Shown one piece after another: positions 7,751 through 37,159 of a DNA stretch of 38,951 nt. The translations under genes were made by a program, and so were the position numbers. The stretch lies in IMG/VR virus record IMGVR_UViG_3300021963_000289, positions 1 through 38,951 of that record; one strand, given 5' to 3'. Each line of letters starts with the position of its first letter. The stretch's first letter is position 1. Source of the DNA: a virus. Under the pieces are notes generated by a model. That model was not told where the DNA came from. It saw only the letters and a program-made list of their open reading frames with translations, and did no database searches.

Positions 7751-8962
7751 ATGTCACAAGACGTTAAAACAAAAAAACAAATTGCAACTGAAGGAAACCC
7801 TAATTTCGATTGGGACGCACACTTAGCAGATTGCCCAACAAATTTCAGAAGACCAAATCTTCACATTAAAGCACCTGCTGGAGTTAAAGTTTATTCAAGA
7901 GCCCCTTATGCTCAAGAATTACTTGATTTAATGGAGAAATTTGAATCAACAGCTCCACAAGTATTTAATGTTATTATTGGAGAAACTCATACAGGTACTG
8001 TATATTCAGTAGACCAAGAATGGGCTTCAATCGACATTGGACACAGAGAAATGGTATATGTTGATATGAACAGAGAATCAAAAGTCTCAAAAGCAAGATT
8101 AATTCCAGGAGAGAAGTTATCAGTTGAAATCGTCGCAGATAGAAGCTCTAACTCTAGAGGATTTATTGTAGGTTCAGTAGAAGCTGGAATCAAGGCAGCA
8201 GCACTAAGAGAAATGTTACAATCAGCAGAAACACAAAACACTGCATATATTGGAACAGTAACTGGAATGATTCCAAACGGAGGTTATTTCGTAAACGTAC
8301 AAGGAATTGACTGTTTCATGCCAGGTTCTCTTGCAGGTATTAACAAACTTGCAGATTTCGAATCAGTATTAAATACTCAAATGTATGTAGTTCCTATGAG
8401 CTACTCTCCAGAAAGAGGTACTGTAATTGTTTCACATAGAAAGTATTTACAAGCCTTAATTCCTGGTAAAGTTGAAGAACTTAAAAATACAATGGGAGAA
8501 ACTAAAACTGGAAATGTTACAGGTTCTGCTAAATACGGAGTATTTGTTGAGTTTGATGGTTGTTTAACTGGAATGATCCATGCAAATGACTTAAATGCTG
8601 AATTTGCTAAGAAACATAAAGCAAGAGAAATTAATCCAGGAGACGAAATTACATTCATTGTAAAAGAAATCATCACTGATGAAAAAATTACATTGACTCA
8701 ATTAGAGTATGTTGAAACAGTAGATCCATGGAAGGAGATTGCAACAAAATACAAATCTTTTCCAGTTGAAGTTAAAGGTACAATAAAATCTGTTAAAGAT
8801 TATGGAGTATTTGTAGACATTGGAGATGGAATAGTAGGATTGTTACACGTATCTGAATTACCAGAAGGCGTTGAAATTACATCAATTGCAAAGAATGATA
8901 ATATAACTGTTCAAGTTACAAGAATTGAAGTTGAGACAAGAAAAGTTTTCTTAAAACTGTAA
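7751..8962 (+). CDS. Ribosomal protein S1 homologue with four S1 RNA-binding domains
   Basis: 403 aa. Four S1 (OB) domains are visible: 73-146, 163-230, 250-318 and 336-403. They line up with domains 1-4 of bacterial bS1. Domain 2 carries the bS1 hallmark GIDCFMPGSLAG (185-196) and the end VSHRKYLQAL. Domain 3 has KYGVFVEFDGCLTGMIH. The link to domain 4 contains DPWKEIATKY, typical of bS1, followed by VKDYGVFVDIGDGIVGLLHVSEL. Domains 5 and 6 of the 557-aa E. coli protein are missing. An N-terminal amphipathic segment (51-66, APYAQELLDLMEKFES) resembles the part of bS1 that docks on the 30S subunit. Likely role: cytoplasmic, mRNA or ribosome binding to favour phage translation. It sits among baseplate genes but has a promoter-like motif upstream and a strong terminator downstream. 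A generic S1-domain RNA-binding protein is the alternative. Confidence 0.9.
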   Translation: MSQDVKTKKQIATEGNPNFDWDAHLADCPTNFRRPNLHIKAPAGVKVYSRAPYAQELLDLMEKFESTAPQVFNVIIGETHTGTVYSVDQEWASIDIGHREMVYVDMNRESKVSKARLIPGEKLSVEIVADRSSNSRGFIVGSVEAGIKAAALREMLQSAETQNTAYIGTVTGMIPNGGYFVNVQGIDCFMPGSLAGINKLADFESVLNTQMYVVPMSYSPERGTVIVSHRKYLQALIPGKVEELKNTMGETKTGNVTGSAKYGVFVEFDGCLTGMIHANDLNAEFAKKHKAREINPGDEITFIVKEIITDEKITLTQLEYVETVDPWKEIATKYKSFPVEVKGTIKSVKDYGVFVDIGDGIVGLLHVSELPEGVEITSIAKNDNITVQVTRIEVETRKVFLKL

Positions 8963-8990
8963 TTGTTAATAACTTTAACATAAATTTAAC

Positions 8991-9019
8991 AGCCCGGATT
9001 TTTTAATCTGGGCTTTTTT
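8991..9019 (+). terminator. Rho-independent terminator after the S1-like gene
   Basis: Arms AGCCCGGATT (8991-9000) and AATCTGGGCT (9005-9014) form a 10-bp stem with one G-U pair and a TTTT loop, followed by T5 (six Ts counting the last stem base). It lies 29 bases after the S1 stop and is the only strong intrinsic terminator seen in the window. Confidence 0.92.
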
Positions 9020-9058: not shown

Positions 9059-9868
9059 ATGAATAAATTTAAAACATACGGACAATTCTTAAATGAATCT
9101 AATCAAAATAATATTGTTAATGTTATTTTAGAAGCATTGGAACCTACGATTGTTGAAATGGTAGCTGCAACTGAAAAATGGTTTGTTGAAACCTTTAAAC
9201 AGGAATTCACCAAGTATGATAGAGAAAGCGCCAGAATTAATTTAATCTATGATATGGTTAAATCAATTGAATCTTATACAATGCCAACAGATTCATTAAT
9301 AACACTCAATGTTCGCAAAAGTGCTAAGGGAAATATTGAAATATCTTCCCAAATTCAAAGAGAAGGAATTGCTTATATTTTTTCAACAGAAGCAATATAT
9401 GCAGGTGGACATAATATCCAAAGACTACATTATAGATATATTGTTAAAACAGATCTTCCAAAAACAGGAGCAACTGAAATTACTAAAGAATATTCTGAAA
9501 AAATTAAAAAAATGTCTAAGCTTGAAAAACTTAATAAAGAAATTCAAGATTACGAATTAAGACTTAAAAGAGCAGTAGAAGATGCCGAAGCAAATTCTAA
9601 ATTAACTGACATTGAAATAATCCAAAGCATTAAAGATAATTCAAGGGAATCTTGGTATGAATGGCCAAGTTGGGAAGAAATTGTAAAACGAGATGCTGCT
9701 AAAAACTACAATGATAGCGAAGAATATTACAATCAACAAATGCAAGATGGTATTGCTAAACGAATTTCTTCTTGGAAATCGATGAACATTGATTCAAAAA
9801 AAAGATACGCAGTAGACTACCAAAAAACTATCAAAAAACTACAAACTAAACTAGATTCAATGTTGTAG
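9059..9868 (+). CDS. Hypothetical protein, 269 aa
   Basis: Not recognised. The N-terminus MNKFKTYGQFLNES is a short amphipathic start of a kind often found on T4-like phage proteins. Residues 15-75 are helical. About 80-130 form a beta-rich patch (SLITLNVRKSAKGNIEIS; HYRYIVKTDL). Residues 145-182 are a strong coiled-coil candidate (KKMSKLEKLNKEIQDYELRLK). The C-terminus is Trp/Tyr- and Lys-rich. There is no signal peptide or membrane segment. It lies between the S1 terminator and the amidoligase-like gene, in the non-structural island. The ATG is preceded by GATAAATATATC, which sits too close to the start for a promoter and probably serves as an A/T-rich leader. It may be packaged, scaffold-related, or a partner of the amidoligase; none of these can be shown here. 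Confidence 0.55.
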   Translation: MNKFKTYGQFLNESNQNNIVNVILEALEPTIVEMVAATEKWFVETFKQEFTKYDRESARINLIYDMVKSIESYTMPTDSLITLNVRKSAKGNIEISSQIQREGIAYIFSTEAIYAGGHNIQRLHYRYIVKTDLPKTGATEITKEYSEKIKKMSKLEKLNKEIQDYELRLKRAVEDAEANSKLTDIEIIQSIKDNSRESWYEWPSWEEIVKRDAAKNYNDSEEYYNQQMQDGIAKRISSWKSMNIDSKKRYAVDYQKTIKKLQTKLDSML

Positions 9869-9918: not shown

Positions 9919-11214
9919 ATGAACAACTTAAACGATTCAAACGTTTTACAAAACGCGCTAGTTGGCGTTGAATTTGAATTCTATTCAAATTTTAGTGCCG
10001 AAGAAACTGCTAAAAAATTAGCAGAACTTTTAGGCAAAAAGATTCATGTTGAAACAAAAGCACATAGTGATTTTGAAGTAACTCAAGATGAATTTAAAAT
10101 AGAACCTGATATGTCGGGTGGAGCAAAGCTTCTAGAACTTGTTACTGGAGCCCTTCCATATTTTGCAGCAAGATTAATGATTATTAATGTGTGCAAATGG
10201 ATTGAAGAGAATGGATATACAAATGACAGATCTTCAATTCACTTAAATCTTTCATTCGATAAATCTAAAATCGATAATAAGTATAGAATATCGAAGATGA
10301 ATGTTCTTAAATTTATCCTTGATTTTAATGAAGATCAAGTATTCAAATTCTTTCCAAAAAGAGAAAATTCAGCATACGCAAAATCAATCAAGTTTGTACT
10401 TCCAAAAGAAGACACATATTTCTTTGATGGAAACTATATTAATCAACAAAACTTTATTTACCCTGATACCAAATATTACGGAATCAATTTTGACAAAAGA
10501 CATAAAAACTATTTAGAATTTAGATATGTTGGAGGCGCTGATTGGGAAAAGAAAACAACAACAATACTACATCTAGTTGACCAATTTTTATTGCAACTAT
10601 GGAAATCAACTGAAAATACCGAATTCACTTCATTAAATTCAATCGAGCTTAAGAAAATAATATCGTCAAATCAGAGAATTATTGATGCTCGTAAAGATTG
10701 GAAAACTATCGAAAAGAATTGGAAAGGCGTTAAGTTTACGGTTGATTTAAACGATAATTCAAAGGTAGTAGATCTATATTGGCCGAGCGTTAAGGAAAGA
10801 GTAATGCGATTATTTACGCATGGTGATCTTACGAAGGGACATATTAATTATGATTCAGATTCTGGTAGAATTCAAATAGCTAATGGTAGATTAGAATATT
10901 GTGTAGATCTTAGAGGATATGAATTCGTTGACTGTTTTTTAAGAGGAGAATTTACAGAGTGTGATATGTATGGATGTGATGTTAACGGATCAGACATTCA
11001 CTATTGTAATTTTTATTCTTCAACTCAAATTAATAGTTCAAAAATAGATGGTTCTTATGTTCATGGATCTTGTGTTGCTAACGATTGTTATGTATATGGT
11101 AAAGGAACATTTAAAGGATCTATGAAAGGTGGTATTTTTAGAGAGGGTACGTACGATAAAAAACTTGCTAAATTTGATAATGACGTAGAAATCGTTAAAT
11201 CAGAAGCAATATAA
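9919..11214 (+). CDS. Amidoligase-like enzyme (COOH-NH2 ligase fold) fused to a Cys-rich beta-helical C-terminal domain
   Basis: 431 aa. The N-terminal 1-235 shows the ordered motifs of the amidoligase family related to glutamine-synthetase/GCS-type ligases. These are LVGVEFEFY (15-22), an acidic strand EPDMSGGAKLLELVTG (62-77), SSIHLNLSFD (105-114) and NYLEFRYVGG (197-206). Conserved Glu/His/Arg in these positions would bind ATP-Mg and the carboxylate substrate. Residues 324-411 change to a quasi-pentapeptide, right-handed-helix-like region (CVDLRGYEFVDCFLRGEFTE, GCDVNGSDIHYCNF) with seven Cys (328, 339, 348, 353, 363, 385, 390). The substrate is unknown; it could add a peptide or amino group to a phage or host molecule. 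It is preceded by a GATATATAAC motif and lies inside the baseplate cluster, so action on a virion protein is possible (inference). The family call rests on motifs only, with no search. Confidence 0.68.
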   Translation: MNNLNDSNVLQNALVGVEFEFYSNFSAEETAKKLAELLGKKIHVETKAHSDFEVTQDEFKIEPDMSGGAKLLELVTGALPYFAARLMIINVCKWIEENGYTNDRSSIHLNLSFDKSKIDNKYRISKMNVLKFILDFNEDQVFKFFPKRENSAYAKSIKFVLPKEDTYFFDGNYINQQNFIYPDTKYYGINFDKRHKNYLEFRYVGGADWEKKTTTILHLVDQFLLQLWKSTENTEFTSLNSIELKKIISSNQRIIDARKDWKTIEKNWKGVKFTVDLNDNSKVVDLYWPSVKERVMRLFTHGDLTKGHINYDSDSGRIQIANGRLEYCVDLRGYEFVDCFLRGEFTECDMYGCDVNGSDIHYCNFYSSTQINSSKIDGSYVHGSCVANDCYVYGKGTFKGSMKGGIFREGTYDKKLAKFDNDVEIVKSEAI

Positions 11215-11229
11215 AAATAAAATAATAAG

Positions 11230-12060
11230 ATGAGCGAAATAATAGTAGGAGGACAAGGAACATTAGTAGACCCATCATGGGAAAGCGGATGTTTTAATGC
11301 GTTTGTAAATGAATTGGCAGATGAAATCACAGGATCTTGTATGATTCCTATGAATTTACCTAGAAGTGAAGTTATGAACATTGTTAATAGAGCTAAAAAA
11401 TGGTTCTATAAAAATTACGAGTATTCTGTTAGAGAAAACTTTATGATTTTACCAATTGAATTATTTTCATCAGAGCATTTCAAAAAAACAAGAAGTTTTA
11501 CCCTACCTGGAATGAATCCAGCGACTGGAGGAAATGAAGTTTTTTCAGTATATGGGCTTGCGGAAGTTGGAGCAAACTGGGGAGGATCTATGGATATTAA
11601 CTGGACACAAGGTGATTTTGCTATCGAAAGAATGTTAATGGGCGGAATGTACGGTGGTACTAAAACCGGAGCAGCTGCTGAAAATTTACAATACTTTGTA
11701 ATTAATGAAAGTTTCTTTGATATGGCTCGACAAATCATGAGAAATCCATTAAGTTATAATTACAATCAATTAACGCATGAGTTAAGATTTACTGGAGAAT
11801 CACCAAAGAAAAACGTGATTCTTGAAGTTTATGAAACAATTCCTGAATGCGCACTATTCCAAGATGAAGCTTTCTTTAGATATTGTGCAGCAAAAATCAA
11901 AATTTCTTTAGGACAAAAATTAGGAATATTTGGTTTTACGCTTCCTGGAAATATTCAAGTAAATCCGGATTTAATTAAAGGTCTTGGTGAAGATGAATTA
12001 GATAAATTAATAGAAGAAATTAAATCAGACGAAGGTACCGACTGGATGATGCATTCTTAA
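11230..12060 (+). CDS. Virion structural protein, unassigned (neck or baseplate)
   Basis: 276 aa, immediately upstream of gp25. It has helical segments (EVMNIVNRAKKWFYKNYEYS; DEAFFRYCAAKIKISLGQKL) separated by strand-rich parts (ENFMILPIELF; HELRFTGESPKKNVILEVYE). It ends in an acidic tail (GEDELDKLIEEIKSDEGTDW). The helix-strand-helix layout is reminiscent of phage connector/adaptor proteins, but its position next to gp25 and gp6 argues for a tail or baseplate role. I could not match it to a T4 gene. It has an A-rich leader (AAAAATAAAATAATAAG) with no Shine-Dalgarno. Confidence 0.5.
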   Translation: MSEIIVGGQGTLVDPSWESGCFNAFVNELADEITGSCMIPMNLPRSEVMNIVNRAKKWFYKNYEYSVRENFMILPIELFSSEHFKKTRSFTLPGMNPATGGNEVFSVYGLAEVGANWGGSMDINWTQGDFAIERMLMGGMYGGTKTGAAAENLQYFVINESFFDMARQIMRNPLSYNYNQLTHELRFTGESPKKNVILEVYETIPECALFQDEAFFRYCAAKIKISLGQKLGIFGFTLPGNIQVNPDLIKGLGEDELDKLIEEIKSDEGTDWMMHS

Positions 12061-12076
12061 AAGAATATATATTACT

Positions 12077-12430
12077 ATGGAATTATATATAAAAACGGTA
12101 GGCGATCCTAATTTTGATCCAGAACAATTACAAGCAGACGAAGATATTCAAATGCTTTTAACCCAAATTGAAACTCTTATTTTTACAAATAAAGGAGAAG
12201 TTCTGGGTAACCCTGAATTTGGTTTAAATATTGATGATTACGTTTATTCATTTAGATATAATGATACAATGCTGCAGAGTATGATAGCGAACGGAATATT
12301 CAGATATTGTCCACTTTCATATAAATACCCGGTAAATGTAAGTGTTGAATTTACACCAGAAACAGAAAGAAACATGGTCTTTATAGACATAACTATCGAC
12401 GGTAGATATGGAATAGGACTGTATGTATAA
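12077..12430 (+). CDS. 25: Baseplate wedge protein gp25-like
   Basis: 117 aa, close to the 132 aa of T4 gp25. It has the family layout: an N-terminal helix (DEDIQMLLTQIETLIFTNKG), then the signature EVLGNPEFGLNIDDYVYSF (residues 40-58), then a helix IANGIFRYCP and strands (NVSVEFTPETERNMVFIDI). This belongs to the GPW/gp25 lysozyme-like fold of contractile tails, which forms the wedge core with gp6 and gp53 and anchors the first sheath ring. No lysozyme activity is expected. The ATG follows an AT-rich leader, and the gp6-like gene starts 12 bases after the stop, matching the conserved gp25-gp6 pairing. Confidence 0.92.
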   Translation: MELYIKTVGDPNFDPEQLQADEDIQMLLTQIETLIFTNKGEVLGNPEFGLNIDDYVYSFRYNDTMLQSMIANGIFRYCPLSYKYPVNVSVEFTPETERNMVFIDITIDGRYGIGLYV

Positions 12431-12442
12431 AATATAAATACG

Positions 12443-14263
12443 ATGGCAGAACTTAAATTTTTATCAAAAGCTAGAATCAAAGCTAGCGAAATGTTGGATG
12501 ATACCAAAACATATATCAGTAGATTATATGGTAGAAGTGGTGATTTATTTTCAACATCATCTCCATTTGCTCAAATTCTTGAAGTATTAACGGAGCTTAC
12601 GAACTTGGTTTTCTTCTACATTGAAGATGCTACAGTTGAACAAAATATTTTAACAGCTCAAAACCCAGAATCTATATATGGACTTGCAAGATTAGCAGGC
12701 CACGATCCATTTAGAGGAACTTCAGCTGTTGGGGAAATTAGAGTGAGATTAAACACAAGTGCTTTTAACGAAATTGCAGGAGACGCCATCAATATTCCAG
12801 CAAACACGGTTATTAAAGCGAGCAAAAATAATCTTTCTTATATCTTAAAAACGAACAACGATCAATTTAGAATTGAAAAAAGTAACCCAGAATATATTTA
12901 TATTCCAGTTGTACAAGGTAAGGTTGAAACGCAAGGTGTTACTGGAACTGGCGCAAAGTTACAGTCTTTTAATTTAATTATCAAAAAGAATACAGATCAT
13001 CATTCAGTTAGAGTAAGCGTTAATAGCGAACTATGGACAAAATATGATTCATTATATGATATGAAAGCCGATTCTAAAGGATATATGGTGAAAAGTGGTA
13101 TTACCGGAGGATTAGATATTTATTTTGGGAATGGATCTTTTGGTATGATTCCACCAGAAGGATCTAGTATTAGTGTTGAATACATTATCACTGACGGTTC
13201 TAAAGGTAATTTAACAGGTTCTAAAGACCTTAATTTTAAATATGAAACTGAAGGATTTGATTCTTTAGGAAATACTTACAACTTAAATAAATTATTGGAA
13301 TCTTCTTTCACAGTTGCTCCAGTAATGGGATCTGATCCGGAGCCTTTAGAGTTAACTAAGTTAATTGCTCCGATGCAAAGTCACTCTTTTGTATTAGCAA
13401 CTCCAGAAAATTACGAAGCATTTCTTTCAAGATATGGTATGTTTTCATACTTAGACGCTTATAATACAACTGAAGATGGGTTTATCGACGATGATAACGT
13501 GATATATTTATTTATGTTACCGGACACTGCTAGAAAACTAACGAAAAATAATGACTATTTTAATATACATCAGGAGGAATTCTTTTTCTCTGAACAAGAA
13601 AAGAATGGAATATTAAAAGTTCTTGAAGAATCAGGACAACAAATGGTAACAACTGAAGTTAAGATTGTAGAACCAAAAGCTCAATATTTTAGAATGGATG
13701 TTAAAGTTCGTTATTTTGAAGGATTTGACAAAGCAAATCTTTATACCGCAATTCGTTCAAAAATTTCAGACTATTTAATTAATATCACGAGAAGAGACAG
13801 ATTACCGAAATCAGATATTATTGCGCTACTAGAAGGTGTTGAAGGAATTGATTCAGTAAATATTAGATTTGTTTCTGAGAAAGAGGAAACAGCTAGACGT
13901 AATGGATATTACACTAGTGAAACTGTTACAGTTACTCCAAGCACTCCAATACTAGAGGATATTGGAAATGGAAAACAAAAATACGTATTCTTTAAAAGAA
14001 ATGTCGTGACATCAAATGTTAATTTTGAACCAGGCGCTGCATTACCTGAAAATGTAATTAATCTTGATTCATTTGGAGATATTATTCTTGAAAAAGAAGA
14101 AGTTGCATTATTCAGAGGAGGTTGGCAAGATCGAGATGGAGCAACGGTATTAGACGATGCGAAAATGGGAGAAATGGCTGCCCTTTCAATTTACTTTGAT
14201 GAACCTGCGGTACCAAATACTATTTTTAGTAAGATGCAAGCACAAAATAGAAAAGCACTATAA
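12443..14263 (+). CDS. 6: Baseplate wedge protein gp6-like (baseplate J family)
   Basis: 606 aa, similar to the 660 aa of T4 gp6. The N-terminal region SSPFAQILEVLTELTNLVFF and IYGLARLAGHDPFRGTSAVG (about 30-95) is the typical gp6/BppJ start. The middle is strand-rich (INIPANTVIKASKNNLSYI; LDIYFGNGSFGMIPPEGSSI), ending with GSKGNLTGSKDLNF. The C-terminal part has TEVKIVEPKAQYFRMDVKVR and YLINITRRDRLPKSDIIALL, the usual end module of baseplate J proteins. It forms the dimeric ring clamp of the wedge. Directly after gp25 as in other contractile tails; the stop overlaps the next start by one base (TAATG). Confidence 0.9.
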   Translation: MAELKFLSKARIKASEMLDDTKTYISRLYGRSGDLFSTSSPFAQILEVLTELTNLVFFYIEDATVEQNILTAQNPESIYGLARLAGHDPFRGTSAVGEIRVRLNTSAFNEIAGDAINIPANTVIKASKNNLSYILKTNNDQFRIEKSNPEYIYIPVVQGKVETQGVTGTGAKLQSFNLIIKKNTDHHSVRVSVNSELWTKYDSLYDMKADSKGYMVKSGITGGLDIYFGNGSFGMIPPEGSSISVEYIITDGSKGNLTGSKDLNFKYETEGFDSLGNTYNLNKLLESSFTVAPVMGSDPEPLELTKLIAPMQSHSFVLATPENYEAFLSRYGMFSYLDAYNTTEDGFIDDDNVIYLFMLPDTARKLTKNNDYFNIHQEEFFFSEQEKNGILKVLEESGQQMVTTEVKIVEPKAQYFRMDVKVRYFEGFDKANLYTAIRSKISDYLINITRRDRLPKSDIIALLEGVEGIDSVNIRFVSEKEETARRNGYYTSETVTVTPSTPILEDIGNGKQKYVFFKRNVVTSNVNFEPGAALPENVINLDSFGDIILEKEEVALFRGGWQDRDGATVLDDAKMGEMAALSIYFDEPAVPNTIFSKMQAQNRKAL

Positions 14264-28042: not shown

Positions 28043-30832
28043 ATGGCTATTAACATTAAGGAATTATTTAGAAGCGATCTGGATCCTAACGGTACACTAT
28101 GGTGGTCTGAAGACAAGATAGATAAAGTTAACTATAATTTTGGTCTACTGTCTAACGGTGGAATGCCAGGGCCTCAGGGTTCTATAGGACCTGATGGAGA
28201 TTTTGGTCCAATTGGAATGAGAGGACCTCAAGGTTATCAAGGGTTTCAAGGACCTCAGGGATTACAAGGAGAATACGCGATAAATGATTGGGTTTATTAT
28301 GCAGATACTATAAGTAGCACTGGATATTTATTTGTTAAGAAAAACATTAATTCTACTTTAGAGTATTCTCCAGTAGTAATGAGAATTGGTATTGATAAAA
28401 ACGATTCCAGATATACAGTTCCGAGTTCTTATTACGATTATGTTGTTTTATCAAACGTTAACCCTAATATATTAGATACTAAAAGTCCTAAAATAAATTT
28501 AAGACTGCAAAGTGATGGAAAGTTTTCAGACTATAAATTAACAAAAAAAATAACGATCGATGGTAGCATTGATGAATTACATATTGGTAAATTTGCATCT
28601 GGAGAATCTGGTTTTGAAATAATTTATCCTTCTGAAAATTTAAAATTGCGTTCAATAACACCACAAAATGGAAACACAACTGACACTCACGAAATAAGCG
28701 ATTCTTTAATAAAAATTAACTCGCGACCATCTCAAAACGGAGCTGTAACAGCTTCAGCAGCTCTTAGTAATATTTCAGGAAAACATACTAGATCAAACCA
28801 TACTTTTAATTATAGTAAAGGGGCTCAGATAGATTATGTTTTAGTATCGGATGACTCAACTGGTAAGTCAAATTGGAGAGATAAAAACTCACTATTTGGT
28901 AGTTATCCAATAGGTTCTATTATTTCAATTAGAGAATCTGATTTTAATTCAACTAACTTTCATTTAAATGAAACTCAATATCAGAATGGAAGCCCATTAC
29001 CAGTTCTTAAAAATTTATTTGGTAGAGGAAAGGTGAATACTGATTTTGCGGGATGGTACCTATGTAACGGAGAATCTTGGGAAATTTCACCAGGAGTTAA
29101 TAGCATTTTAACACCTAATTTGAATTCTTTTAATTATAACATTGGATCAAATGGAGGAGAACAAAATGCAATAACGAACGGAGGAAGCAATGATAAAATA
29201 ATCGTTGGAGGTTATGATTTAAACGTTAACGCTGCTTTTAACAGTGCTAATAATAGTTATAACGTTCAATTTACAAATACATGGAATGACAATAACAGCG
29301 GAGATGTTACTATCGATATGGGTACATCATCTCCGACAGATTCGTATGTAAGTAGAATGGTTCATATAGTTTACTTAGAAAATACAAGCCTTACATGGTC
29401 TAAGTCTAATGTCGCACCTCCAACTATAGTAACGACTCCTATTTCTTTAGGATATTCTTTATTAAATTCACCGTCACCTAATGGTATCTGTGATGTACAA
29501 ACTTCTAATACTTATTCATGGAATGGAACTTCAGGAAGCTGGTCAACGTTTAATGAATCAAATGGAGGAGTTTATTTGTATTCTCACAATACTACCAATT
29601 TTGCGCCAACTGGATATTATATAGATGTAGCAACTGGAATATGGAGATATTGGAATGCAACAACACAGACTTTTTCTAGTCCCACAACATGCGTTGTTAT
29701 TCCTTCATTTAATATATTTTTAGTTTCTTCAGATAGAGTTGACCAATATATCAACGGTCCTGTTAGCCAATTTACGATTCCATTACAGTTTAAAATAGAT
29801 AATTCTGATTTTAAATTTGCAACTACTCTTAAATACGGATTTAACAATGGCGTTGCAGCAGCAGGATGGTACCGAGACGTTGTTACTGGTAGAAGAAGAT
29901 ACTGGAATGGATCTTCATTCCAAGGAGTTGGATTCACCAATGATTATGTGTATTCAGTACAAGATACTGCCGGAAATCATACTGGATTTAATATGGTAAC
30001 TAGTGTTTCTACTGCATGTGGAGCATCGAATACAAGATACGAATCTTATGTTGCAACTGATAATGAGCTAGTATTTACTGATATTTCAAATATCATAGGA
30101 TTAATTTTATGGGTACCTCAAAACTGGATCGGTCTTCCGGGACAACCTACACCTGCTCTTGTTAATATTATAAGTCAAAATGCGCCATCACAAACAACAA
30201 CATGGAAGAGAGTGTATCATAATGGCGATTTTGAAAGTGTAACTGCTTCAATTAACCAAACAACAGGAATAGTTAACACTCCTACATTATGTACTGCAGG
30301 AACTTCAGGAACTGGAGGTACAGGAGGAACTGGTGGATCTGGGTGTTTAATAGAAGGAACAAATATATTAATGGCCGATGGAACTACTAATAAAATAGAA
30401 AATCTAAAGGTTGGAGATAGTTTATCTAGTAAATTAATTGAAGGAATGCCAATTAAAGAGGATCAAACTTTATTAGATTGGAGAAATTCCGGAGATATTA
30501 AATTACAAAAAGAATCAGTAGAATTAAAGAGTATAAAATTATTTGAAGTAGATACTGTTCTATCATTTAATAATAAAACAATAGTTTCATCAAAAGACCA
30601 TTTACATGTTATTAAGCAAAATGGAATTTGGAGAATTCTTCGAGGTGATGAAATTAAAATTGGAGATTATTTATTAGACCAAACCGGTAAAGAAATAGAA
30701 ATAGAAATTATAGATATTTTTATAGGAAACTTTAAAGTTTATAAATTAGATGTTGAAGAAAACGATTTATTTATTGCTAATGGAATATTAACACATAATT
30801 TAAAAAATGCGCTAGCGCCAGACGCTGTATAA
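28043..30832 (+). CDS. Collagen-like tail-collar fibre with C-terminal Hint (intein-like) domain
   Basis: 929 aa, starting 2 bases after the previous stop. Domains: an N-terminal attachment segment (1-39, KIDKVNYNFGLLSNGG); 12 uninterrupted Gly-X-Y triplets (40-75); a beta-rich shaft; and a tail-collar domain with AGWYLCNGESW (336-346) and TPNLNSFNYNIG. Then come two copies of a GYYxDxxTGxxRYWN motif (about 524 and 607) and a Gly/Thr/Ser linker (about 752-767). A complete Hint domain follows (768-919). It has Cys768 in CLIEGTNILMADGT, VGD (790-792), block-B SKDH with His853, IGDYLLD (873-879), and ends KVYKLDVEENDLFIANG plus LTHN (His918, Asn919). Only ten residues follow, beginning with Leu920. 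Role: receptor-binding fibre whose tip may be cleaved or ligated autocatalytically. Without a Cys/Ser/Thr at +1, full splicing is unlikely; cleavage fits better (inference). Confidence 0.85.
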   Translation: MAINIKELFRSDLDPNGTLWWSEDKIDKVNYNFGLLSNGGMPGPQGSIGPDGDFGPIGMRGPQGYQGFQGPQGLQGEYAINDWVYYADTISSTGYLFVKKNINSTLEYSPVVMRIGIDKNDSRYTVPSSYYDYVVLSNVNPNILDTKSPKINLRLQSDGKFSDYKLTKKITIDGSIDELHIGKFASGESGFEIIYPSENLKLRSITPQNGNTTDTHEISDSLIKINSRPSQNGAVTASAALSNISGKHTRSNHTFNYSKGAQIDYVLVSDDSTGKSNWRDKNSLFGSYPIGSIISIRESDFNSTNFHLNETQYQNGSPLPVLKNLFGRGKVNTDFAGWYLCNGESWEISPGVNSILTPNLNSFNYNIGSNGGEQNAITNGGSNDKIIVGGYDLNVNAAFNSANNSYNVQFTNTWNDNNSGDVTIDMGTSSPTDSYVSRMVHIVYLENTSLTWSKSNVAPPTIVTTPISLGYSLLNSPSPNGICDVQTSNTYSWNGTSGSWSTFNESNGGVYLYSHNTTNFAPTGYYIDVATGIWRYWNATTQTFSSPTTCVVIPSFNIFLVSSDRVDQYINGPVSQFTIPLQFKIDNSDFKFATTLKYGFNNGVAAAGWYRDVVTGRRRYWNGSSFQGVGFTNDYVYSVQDTAGNHTGFNMVTSVSTACGASNTRYESYVATDNELVFTDISNIIGLILWVPQNWIGLPGQPTPALVNIISQNAPSQTTTWKRVYHNGDFESVTASINQTTGIVNTPTLCTAGTSGTGGTGGTGGSGCLIEGTNILMADGTTNKIENLKVGDSLSSKLIEGMPIKEDQTLLDWRNSGDIKLQKESVELKSIKLFEVDTVLSFNNKTIVSSKDHLHVIKQNGIWRILRGDEIKIGDYLLDQTGKEIEIEIIDIFIGNFKVYKLDVEENDLFIANGILTHNLKNALAPDAV
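30344..30799 (+). other. Hint/BIL-type autoprocessing domain (within fibre gene)
   Basis: Encodes residues 768-919 of the fibre. Nucleophile Cys768 follows a Gly-rich linker, block-B histidine is His853 in SKDH, and the end is His918-Asn919. The domain is 152 aa, typical for a Hint fold without homing endonuclease. The +1 residue is Leu, like A-type bacterial intein-like domains rather than classical inteins. Confidence 0.85.
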
Positions 30833-36796: not shown

Positions 36797-37159
36797 ATGA
36801 AAACATTTTTAGATTATATGGCTGAAGAGAACATAACTCCAGTCGAATTACAGATATTAAATGAATCTCTTCAAACTGAATGGACTGAAGAACTAGAAGC
36901 TAAAGTTGATGCAGCTTTAGAAGAGTTCTCAAAGACTTATAAGAATGAGGACGGAACTTACAATGTTCAAAGATTCAACGAAGAGATTACTAATGAAGGA
37001 CTTTTAGGTAGTATCTTTGGAGGTCTTGCTGGTTTTGCTCTTGGTAAAACTATCGGTAAAACTGTTGCAAATATCCTAGGAATTCAAAGTGGTGTAATGT
37101 ACGATATGTTAACTTCAAGATTAGTTGGTGCCGCTCTTGGTGCTTCTCTTGGTAAATAA
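36797..37159 (+). CDS. Small Gly-zipper protein, possible head-internal or membrane-active protein
   Basis: 120 aa. The N-terminal 68 residues are acidic and helical (MKTFLDYMAEENITPVELQI, LNESLQTEWTEELEAKVDAA). This is the kind of short phage N-terminus seen on proteins that are packaged into or removed from the head. Residues 68-120 switch to a Gly/Ala/Leu zipper (GLLGSIFGGLAGFALGKTIG, then MLTSRLVGAALGASLGK) that could insert in a membrane. A glycine-zipper pore, holin-like or injection-associated function is possible. The junction EEITNEG lacks a strict T4 gp21 cleavage consensus. Not recognised. Confidence 0.55.
   Translation: MKTFLDYMAEENITPVELQILNESLQTEWTEELEAKVDAALEEFSKTYKNEDGTYNVQRFNEEITNEGLLGSIFGGLAGFALGKTIGKTVANILGIQSGVMYDMLTSRLVGAALGASLGK

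Follow-up and report, generated by a model that had tools for sequence, protein, structure and literature searches.

The window analysed here, a 38,951-nucleotide stretch from a virus (IMG/VR record IMGVR_UViG_3300021963_000289), encodes an Amidoligase_2 protein that carries a C-terminal pentapeptide solenoid and is produced alongside the neck protein of a large phage, probably one related to T4. This fusion of an amidoligase to a solenoid is a widespread phage variant of a known enzyme superfamily. We tentatively propose, with somewhat less than even confidence, that this amidoligase is linked to virion assembly, where it would modify a protein of the neck or tail, and that it also has a non-catalytic role. 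The gene and its parts are listed below; gene labels (g01 to g25) are our own.

9919..11214, plus strand: amidoligase-pentapeptide fusion gene (g09, P0001), 431 aa.
9955..10623, plus strand: GS-fold amidoligase domain, residues 13-235 (PF12224, fold matches to GS and to phage amidoligases, conserved catalytic-type residues).
10624..10818, plus strand: linker, residues 236-300, mostly helical by DSSP of the model and poorly conserved (mean pairwise identity 0.32, no invariant column).
10819..11211, plus strand: pentapeptide-repeat right-handed beta-helix, residues 301-431, with seven cysteines (profile and fold matches).

An amidoligase had originally been predicted from four motifs, all of which are present in the order given: GVEFEFY (residues 16-22), EPDMSGG..ELVTG (62-77), SSIHLNLSF (105-113) and NYLEFRYVGG (197-206). 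They exceed chance, because PF12224 (Amidoligase_2), the sole Pfam family matched by the window protein, scores above its curated cut-off (30.3 bits versus 22, E 4.9e-07, residues 13-66), with a match that spans about the first quarter of the profile. The same profile is found at E <= 0.01 in 16 of 42 diverse family members, and in one relative (G012) it is matched in two stretches, profile positions 3-56 and 136-228; the divergent members L417, L415 and L394 gave no match at this threshold. PHROGs and NCBIfam searches of the window protein returned nothing convincing.

The predicted fold points in the same direction. The AlphaFold2 model of the window protein, built with 42 family rows, has a mean pLDDT of 90.4, and a PDB search with the whole model placed glutamine synthetases (GS) in the top rows (E 1e-4, with a low global TM of 0.28). 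In a second PDB look, all 50 rows displayed were chains of the GS superfamily (Z 10.1-11.2, about 170-210 residues aligned), the best having Z 11.2 and an rmsd of 3.6 over 189 residues; identity to such chains is about 10-15% over some 190 residues. The likeness to the GS / gamma-glutamylcysteine synthetase superfamily is thus one of predicted fold, and the GxExE, E, HxN, R and ExR motifs are presumably equivalents of the motifs of that superfamily. In BFVD, the first match was A0A6J5PQ40, an uncharacterised 439 aa protein of an uncultured Caudovirales phage with the same full-length architecture (TM 0.87, 23% identity), and the rows after it are mostly proteins called amidoligase (phage).

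Residue conservation was followed over 43 representatives at <75% identity, query included, drawn from 127 distinct full-length rows plus the query. Invariant among them are G16, E18, E20, D64, S66, G68, E73, T76, H108, N110, K131, E138, R148, Y153, K185, G188, N190, E200 and R202. Seven of these (E18, E20, E73, H108, R148, E200 and R202) we take to be GS-type metal/ATP residues, and all seven are present in the window protein. Profile, predicted fold and residue conservation together support the amidoligase assignment.

Because the second PDB look covers residues 1-329 only, the C-terminus was folded and searched alone. Its 131 residues reach a pLDDT of 95.7, and a new strand begins at roughly every fifth residue (domain positions 49, 54, 59, 64, 70 and 75), the periodicity of a quadrilateral beta-helix. 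The best Foldseek rows were mostly pentapeptide-repeat proteins, none of them under E 0.001; in a structure search, pentapeptide proteins scored Z of about 8-9, with autotransporters and pectate lyases within about 1 Z. Since these score so close, the fold match alone is indecisive and the profile match decides: the family profile finds the pentapeptide protein AlbG (2xt4) in the PDB at E 1.5e-05. With the Pfam pentapeptide families, the window protein itself gave no match; Pentapeptide_4 is matched at E <= 0.01 in 23 of 42 members (best 8.7e-07), and one member reached 22.5 bits where the cut-off is 38. AlbG, MfpA and Qnr, which share the solenoid, occur as separate proteins and are known to act on gyrase, whereas here the solenoid is the tail of an enzyme.

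A beta-helix with exactly seven cysteines, as first described, is therefore borne out by profile, fold and residue count (positions 328, 339, 348, 353, 363, 385 and 390). Its description as Cys-rich is right as to number, but nothing special attaches to it: Cys is the usual residue at 339, 348 and 390 only, where 35-39 of the 43 representatives have it, and across all 43 the seven positions alternate mainly with Ser/Thr. We therefore rejected a metal or disulfide site; from this interchange, the helix cysteines look like ordinary core packing.

Relatives were collected from IMG/VR in three scans, which gave 213, at least 543 and at least 491 confirmed stretches, the best 80 of each being kept. 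The full-length fusion family comprises 161 distinct sequences in this analysis, or 162 alignment rows with the window counted twice. Family counts leave out L087 and sequences of <400 aa, the set of 161 also leaves out L246 and matches of <150 bits, A3 and A4 leave out L082-L086, and structure prediction used the window and related-locus sequences only. A tblastn search of 50,697 phage records found relatives in six uncultured records of 462-735 kb and matched Atu_ph07 weakly, in two records. A search of 22 family-bearing large records found one full-length copy apiece, while Atu_ph07, the 23rd large record, has none by the family profile used for this count; two large records contain short extra matches that cover the helix part or a stop-containing stretch. 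As to cellular relatives, a contig scan gave two short MAG contigs, and in 46 genomes of their phylum PF12224 had one match at E <= 1e-8.

Mean pairwise identity is 0.51 in the enzyme part, 0.32 in the linker and 0.36 in the helix, and the helix region is filled in all 30 representatives at <60% identity. Substitution ratios indicate that the fusion gene is under purifying selection: dN/dS of the window gene is 0.031, 0.041, 0.048 and 0.049 against L002, L005, L022 and L034, dS being near saturation for the last two.

The gene lies among tail and baseplate genes, which occur throughout the window. Neighbouring genes and features are listed here.

5027: OB/gpV-like gene.
7751..8962, plus strand: g07, S1-domain protein, the upstream neighbour in the collinear group (PF00575, E 2.3e-23, two matched stretches).
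8990..9019, plus strand: terminator-like hairpin and T run between g07 and g08, read directly from the sequence.
9059..9868, plus strand: g08, with a T4-like capsid-targeting leader (61 matches, leader conserved in most).
11230..12060, plus strand: g10, neck / head-tail adaptor gene (phrog_211, head-tail adaptor Ad2, E 2.6e-08).
12077..12430, plus strand: g11, gp25-like baseplate wedge gene (PF04965 at E 0.0076, below cut-off; phrog_261 and phrog_43 weak).
12443..14263, plus strand: g12, gp6/J-like baseplate wedge gene (phrog_219, E 1e-38).

The original prediction placed the gene inside a baseplate cluster. The gp25-like, gp6-like and OB/gpV-like genes agree with this, but the directly downstream gene encodes a neck / head-tail adaptor protein, so that the cluster is better described as one of neck and baseplate genes. 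The neck gene g10 begins 15 bases past the amidoligase gene, and Tenacibaculum and Chryseobacterium phages have homologues of it that are annotated 'neck protein'. Among 42 representative loci, the neck gene is directly downstream in 13, another 23 hold it or another of seven neck/baseplate markers, and 6 hold none.

Since these loci had been picked by the amidoligase, we reversed the test and picked loci by the neck gene. In all 80 loci picked by the neck protein (>=67% identity), the amidoligase lies 9-19 bases upstream on the same strand. Of 80 loci picked by a divergent neck profile, 43 hold an amidoligase, which immediately precedes the neck gene on the same strand in 31 and has another place in the locus in 12; of the 37 others, three (L373, L381 and L388) belong to records that carry one elsewhere. 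Among 20 large records picked by the neck gene, 12 have an enzyme-domain match, one has a helix match only and 7 have none; the records without a match include ones of 385 and 281 kb, possibly incomplete. Nor was an amidoligase found in PTm1, MaF61, Lak-B5, MA9V-2, PAU and pT24, where neck or g01 homologues are present, so that neck assembly in general can do without it. The amidoligase and the neck gene thus make an old, tightly linked pair that some of these phages nevertheless lack.

Several other observations were made in the window and its relatives. The protein g07 places an S1 RNA-binding domain amid the tail/baseplate cluster. The gene g08 was found in the closer relatives only, and not in the loci at <75% identity. 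Its N-terminal leader, of the M..FKTYGQFLNE type, recurs in the window at 36797-37159, and in L084 (13829-15820) and its relatives; a DHH-like neighbour found in another group has it in many of its copies. Such leaders resemble, we presume, the capsid-targeting sequences of T4 internal proteins, and the proteins that bear them are perhaps packaged in the head. At 28043-30832 the window encodes a collagen-like tail protein of 929 aa with an intein/Hint-like C-terminal region, which starts GCLIEGTNILMADG and ends ANGILTHN, about ten residues before the end of the protein; its Pfam matches to Hom_end_hint and PT-HINT are weak and below cut-off, and a self-processing tail fibre is a possible product. 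A conserved gene of about 130 aa occurs in 16 of the 42 representative loci (for example L196 9499-9888 and L184 13213-13605), near the amidoligase and g01 in one large group; the one copy searched had no Pfam or PHROG match. The neighbour search left out genes g18-g20. Timing the gene by the T4 late promoter TATAAATA was uninformative, its 9 sites being at chance level (9.7 expected). When named phages are compared by their neck and g01 proteins, the nearest ones have mostly Bacteroidota as hosts (Tenacibaculum, Chryseobacterium, Prevotella, Flavobacterium), and the window phage may therefore infect a member of this phylum too.

How could an amidoligase serve a phage from such a position? ATP is unavailable outside the cell, so that an ATP-dependent step would act in the infected cell. 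We envisage that the amidoligase works there during neck and tail assembly: the solenoid would dock the enzyme on an assembly intermediate, and the GS-like site would activate a carboxylate with ATP, which would then be amide-bonded to an amine group of a protein in the neck or tail; alternatively, an amino acid such as glutamate would be attached. We favour a role in assembly because the coupling to the neck gene is tight, the gene is single copy and the solenoid is of a docking type. The amide-linked addition to a virion or host protein that was originally suggested appears compatible with this strong coupling.

Some findings speak against the assembly reading. Not all neighbours are structural genes, since an S1-domain protein is among them and one group also has a DHH-like protein. 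Eight of the 20 neck-picked large records have no enzyme-domain match, and the neck protein's tail is not specific to enzyme-bearing phages. That conserved C-terminal tail was considered as a substrate, and the idea is unsupported: it is also found in neck proteins of amidoligase-free loci, pT24 and (in part) PTm1.

One clade bears directly on the balance between catalysis and structure. At the seven catalytic-type positions, 146 of the 162 rows have EEEHRER and 13 have EEEQRER, and the acidic ligands are mostly gone in three: L417 and L402 (TESNRTR) and L415 (EEKCRRR). The positions lost in all three alike include G16, D64, S66, G68, E73, N190 and E200, and those kept in all three include E20, K131, E138, R148, R202, Y203 and N310. 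L415 and L417 group together in the tree as a single clade (support 100/100, mutual identity 43%), and in each case the neck gene follows directly downstream. Between L417 and L402 there are 52 synonymous and 9 non-synonymous differences (dN/dS of about 0.04), and each site-loss type is found on contigs from different samples. No second gene copy was found in any of five records, most of which are short fragments. The clade keeps the gene in place, so catalysis cannot be the whole role. We read this clade, which comprises two lineages in a divergent alignment and is judged by presumed GS equivalences, as keeping the protein for something besides metal-dependent ligation; a non-catalytic job in neck assembly, alongside the enzyme role, is probable.

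In the 13 rows with Gln at position 108 (the L394-L413 group, L254 and L418) the acidic set is intact. Nine of them are in the tree, where all except L418 form one clade; Gln at this position could mark a changed substrate.

Three other explanations are considered. In the first, the old amidoligase fold would have become a neck or tail building block, or an assembly chaperone, and the site would be kept for ATP binding or stability. The three site-loss sequences, which lost most ligands and are still in place under purifying selection, fit this, as does a neck or baseplate gene in 36 of the 42 representative loci. Yet a purely structural function does not predict GS-type residues fixed over 70% divergence, the enzyme domain is better conserved than the solenoid, and the catalytic-type set is full in all but 16 rows, 13 of which have Gln for His. 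We consider it unlikely, if a serious contender.

The second explanation is an enzyme whose gamma-glutamyl or peptide product alters the host envelope. Phage amidoligases have been treated as host-surface, superinfection or metabolite enzymes, with reference to a 2009 survey, and such a role is stated for those of phiEco32 and Marvin (PMC10580990, PMC11318856). The amidoligase-GATase cassettes of phages such as phiEco32, Marvin and OM43 phages belong to the same enzyme family, PF12224 (PMC10580990), but they have a glutamine amidotransferase, whereas here a solenoid fusion is tied to morphogenesis genes of neck and tail. GATase_6 (PF13522) was found in none of the 22 family-bearing records, some possibly fragments, while all 14 control genomes were positive. 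A point in favour is a GGACT-type cyclotransferase in 4 of the 22, in none placed beside the amidoligase gene. Such a host-surface or small-molecule enzyme seems improbable.

The third, takeover of a host protein, for example in translation, with g07 as partner and a late-cluster place by chance, appears more improbable still: g07 immediately precedes the amidoligase gene in 10 of those 13 loci where the neck gene immediately follows it, and peptide-modifying ligases acting on host proteins have been proposed for jumbo phages (PMC7824862, an overview in whose available text the word amidoligase occurs in the reference list only), but g07 is rarely nearby outside the collinear group, while the link to the neck gene extends to divergent clades.

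Returning to the assembly-linked amidoligase, a named counterpart is the distant relative gp196 of Atu_ph07. It has an amidoligase domain (PF12224, 30.7 bits), is matched by the family HMM at E 4.3e-20 over residues 160-392 and ranks second in BFVD; it differs in that it aligns over the enzyme part only, the pentapeptide part not being seen. It lies near head genes, the portal gene being two genes away, and the annotation shows no neck gene next to it; many virion proteins of Atu_ph07 are encoded in CDS 170-215, a range that spans gp196 (PMC6102473). Titles and abstract openings in the literature revealed no paper describing an amidoligase-pentapeptide fusion or its neck/baseplate location. 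Old T4 work reportedly contains a folate-polyglutamate idea for baseplates; a literature search for it returned no paper.

To our knowledge, the assembly of tailed phages has no established step in which virion parts are ligated through amide bonds at the expense of ATP. Because the gene is common, single copy and tied to the neck gene, the idea of virion ligation is directly testable, and the site-loss clade is a natural mutant that separates the catalytic from the scaffolding role. In its broadest form, the proposal would be that in many large phages an ATP-driven GS-fold ligase, made together with the neck protein, covalently modifies or cross-links the neck or tail and is also a part of the assembly, one lineage retaining the non-catalytic role only. 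We regard this full version as rather doubtful; if it is true, the site-loss lineage would be an enzyme caught in the course of turning into a structural protein.
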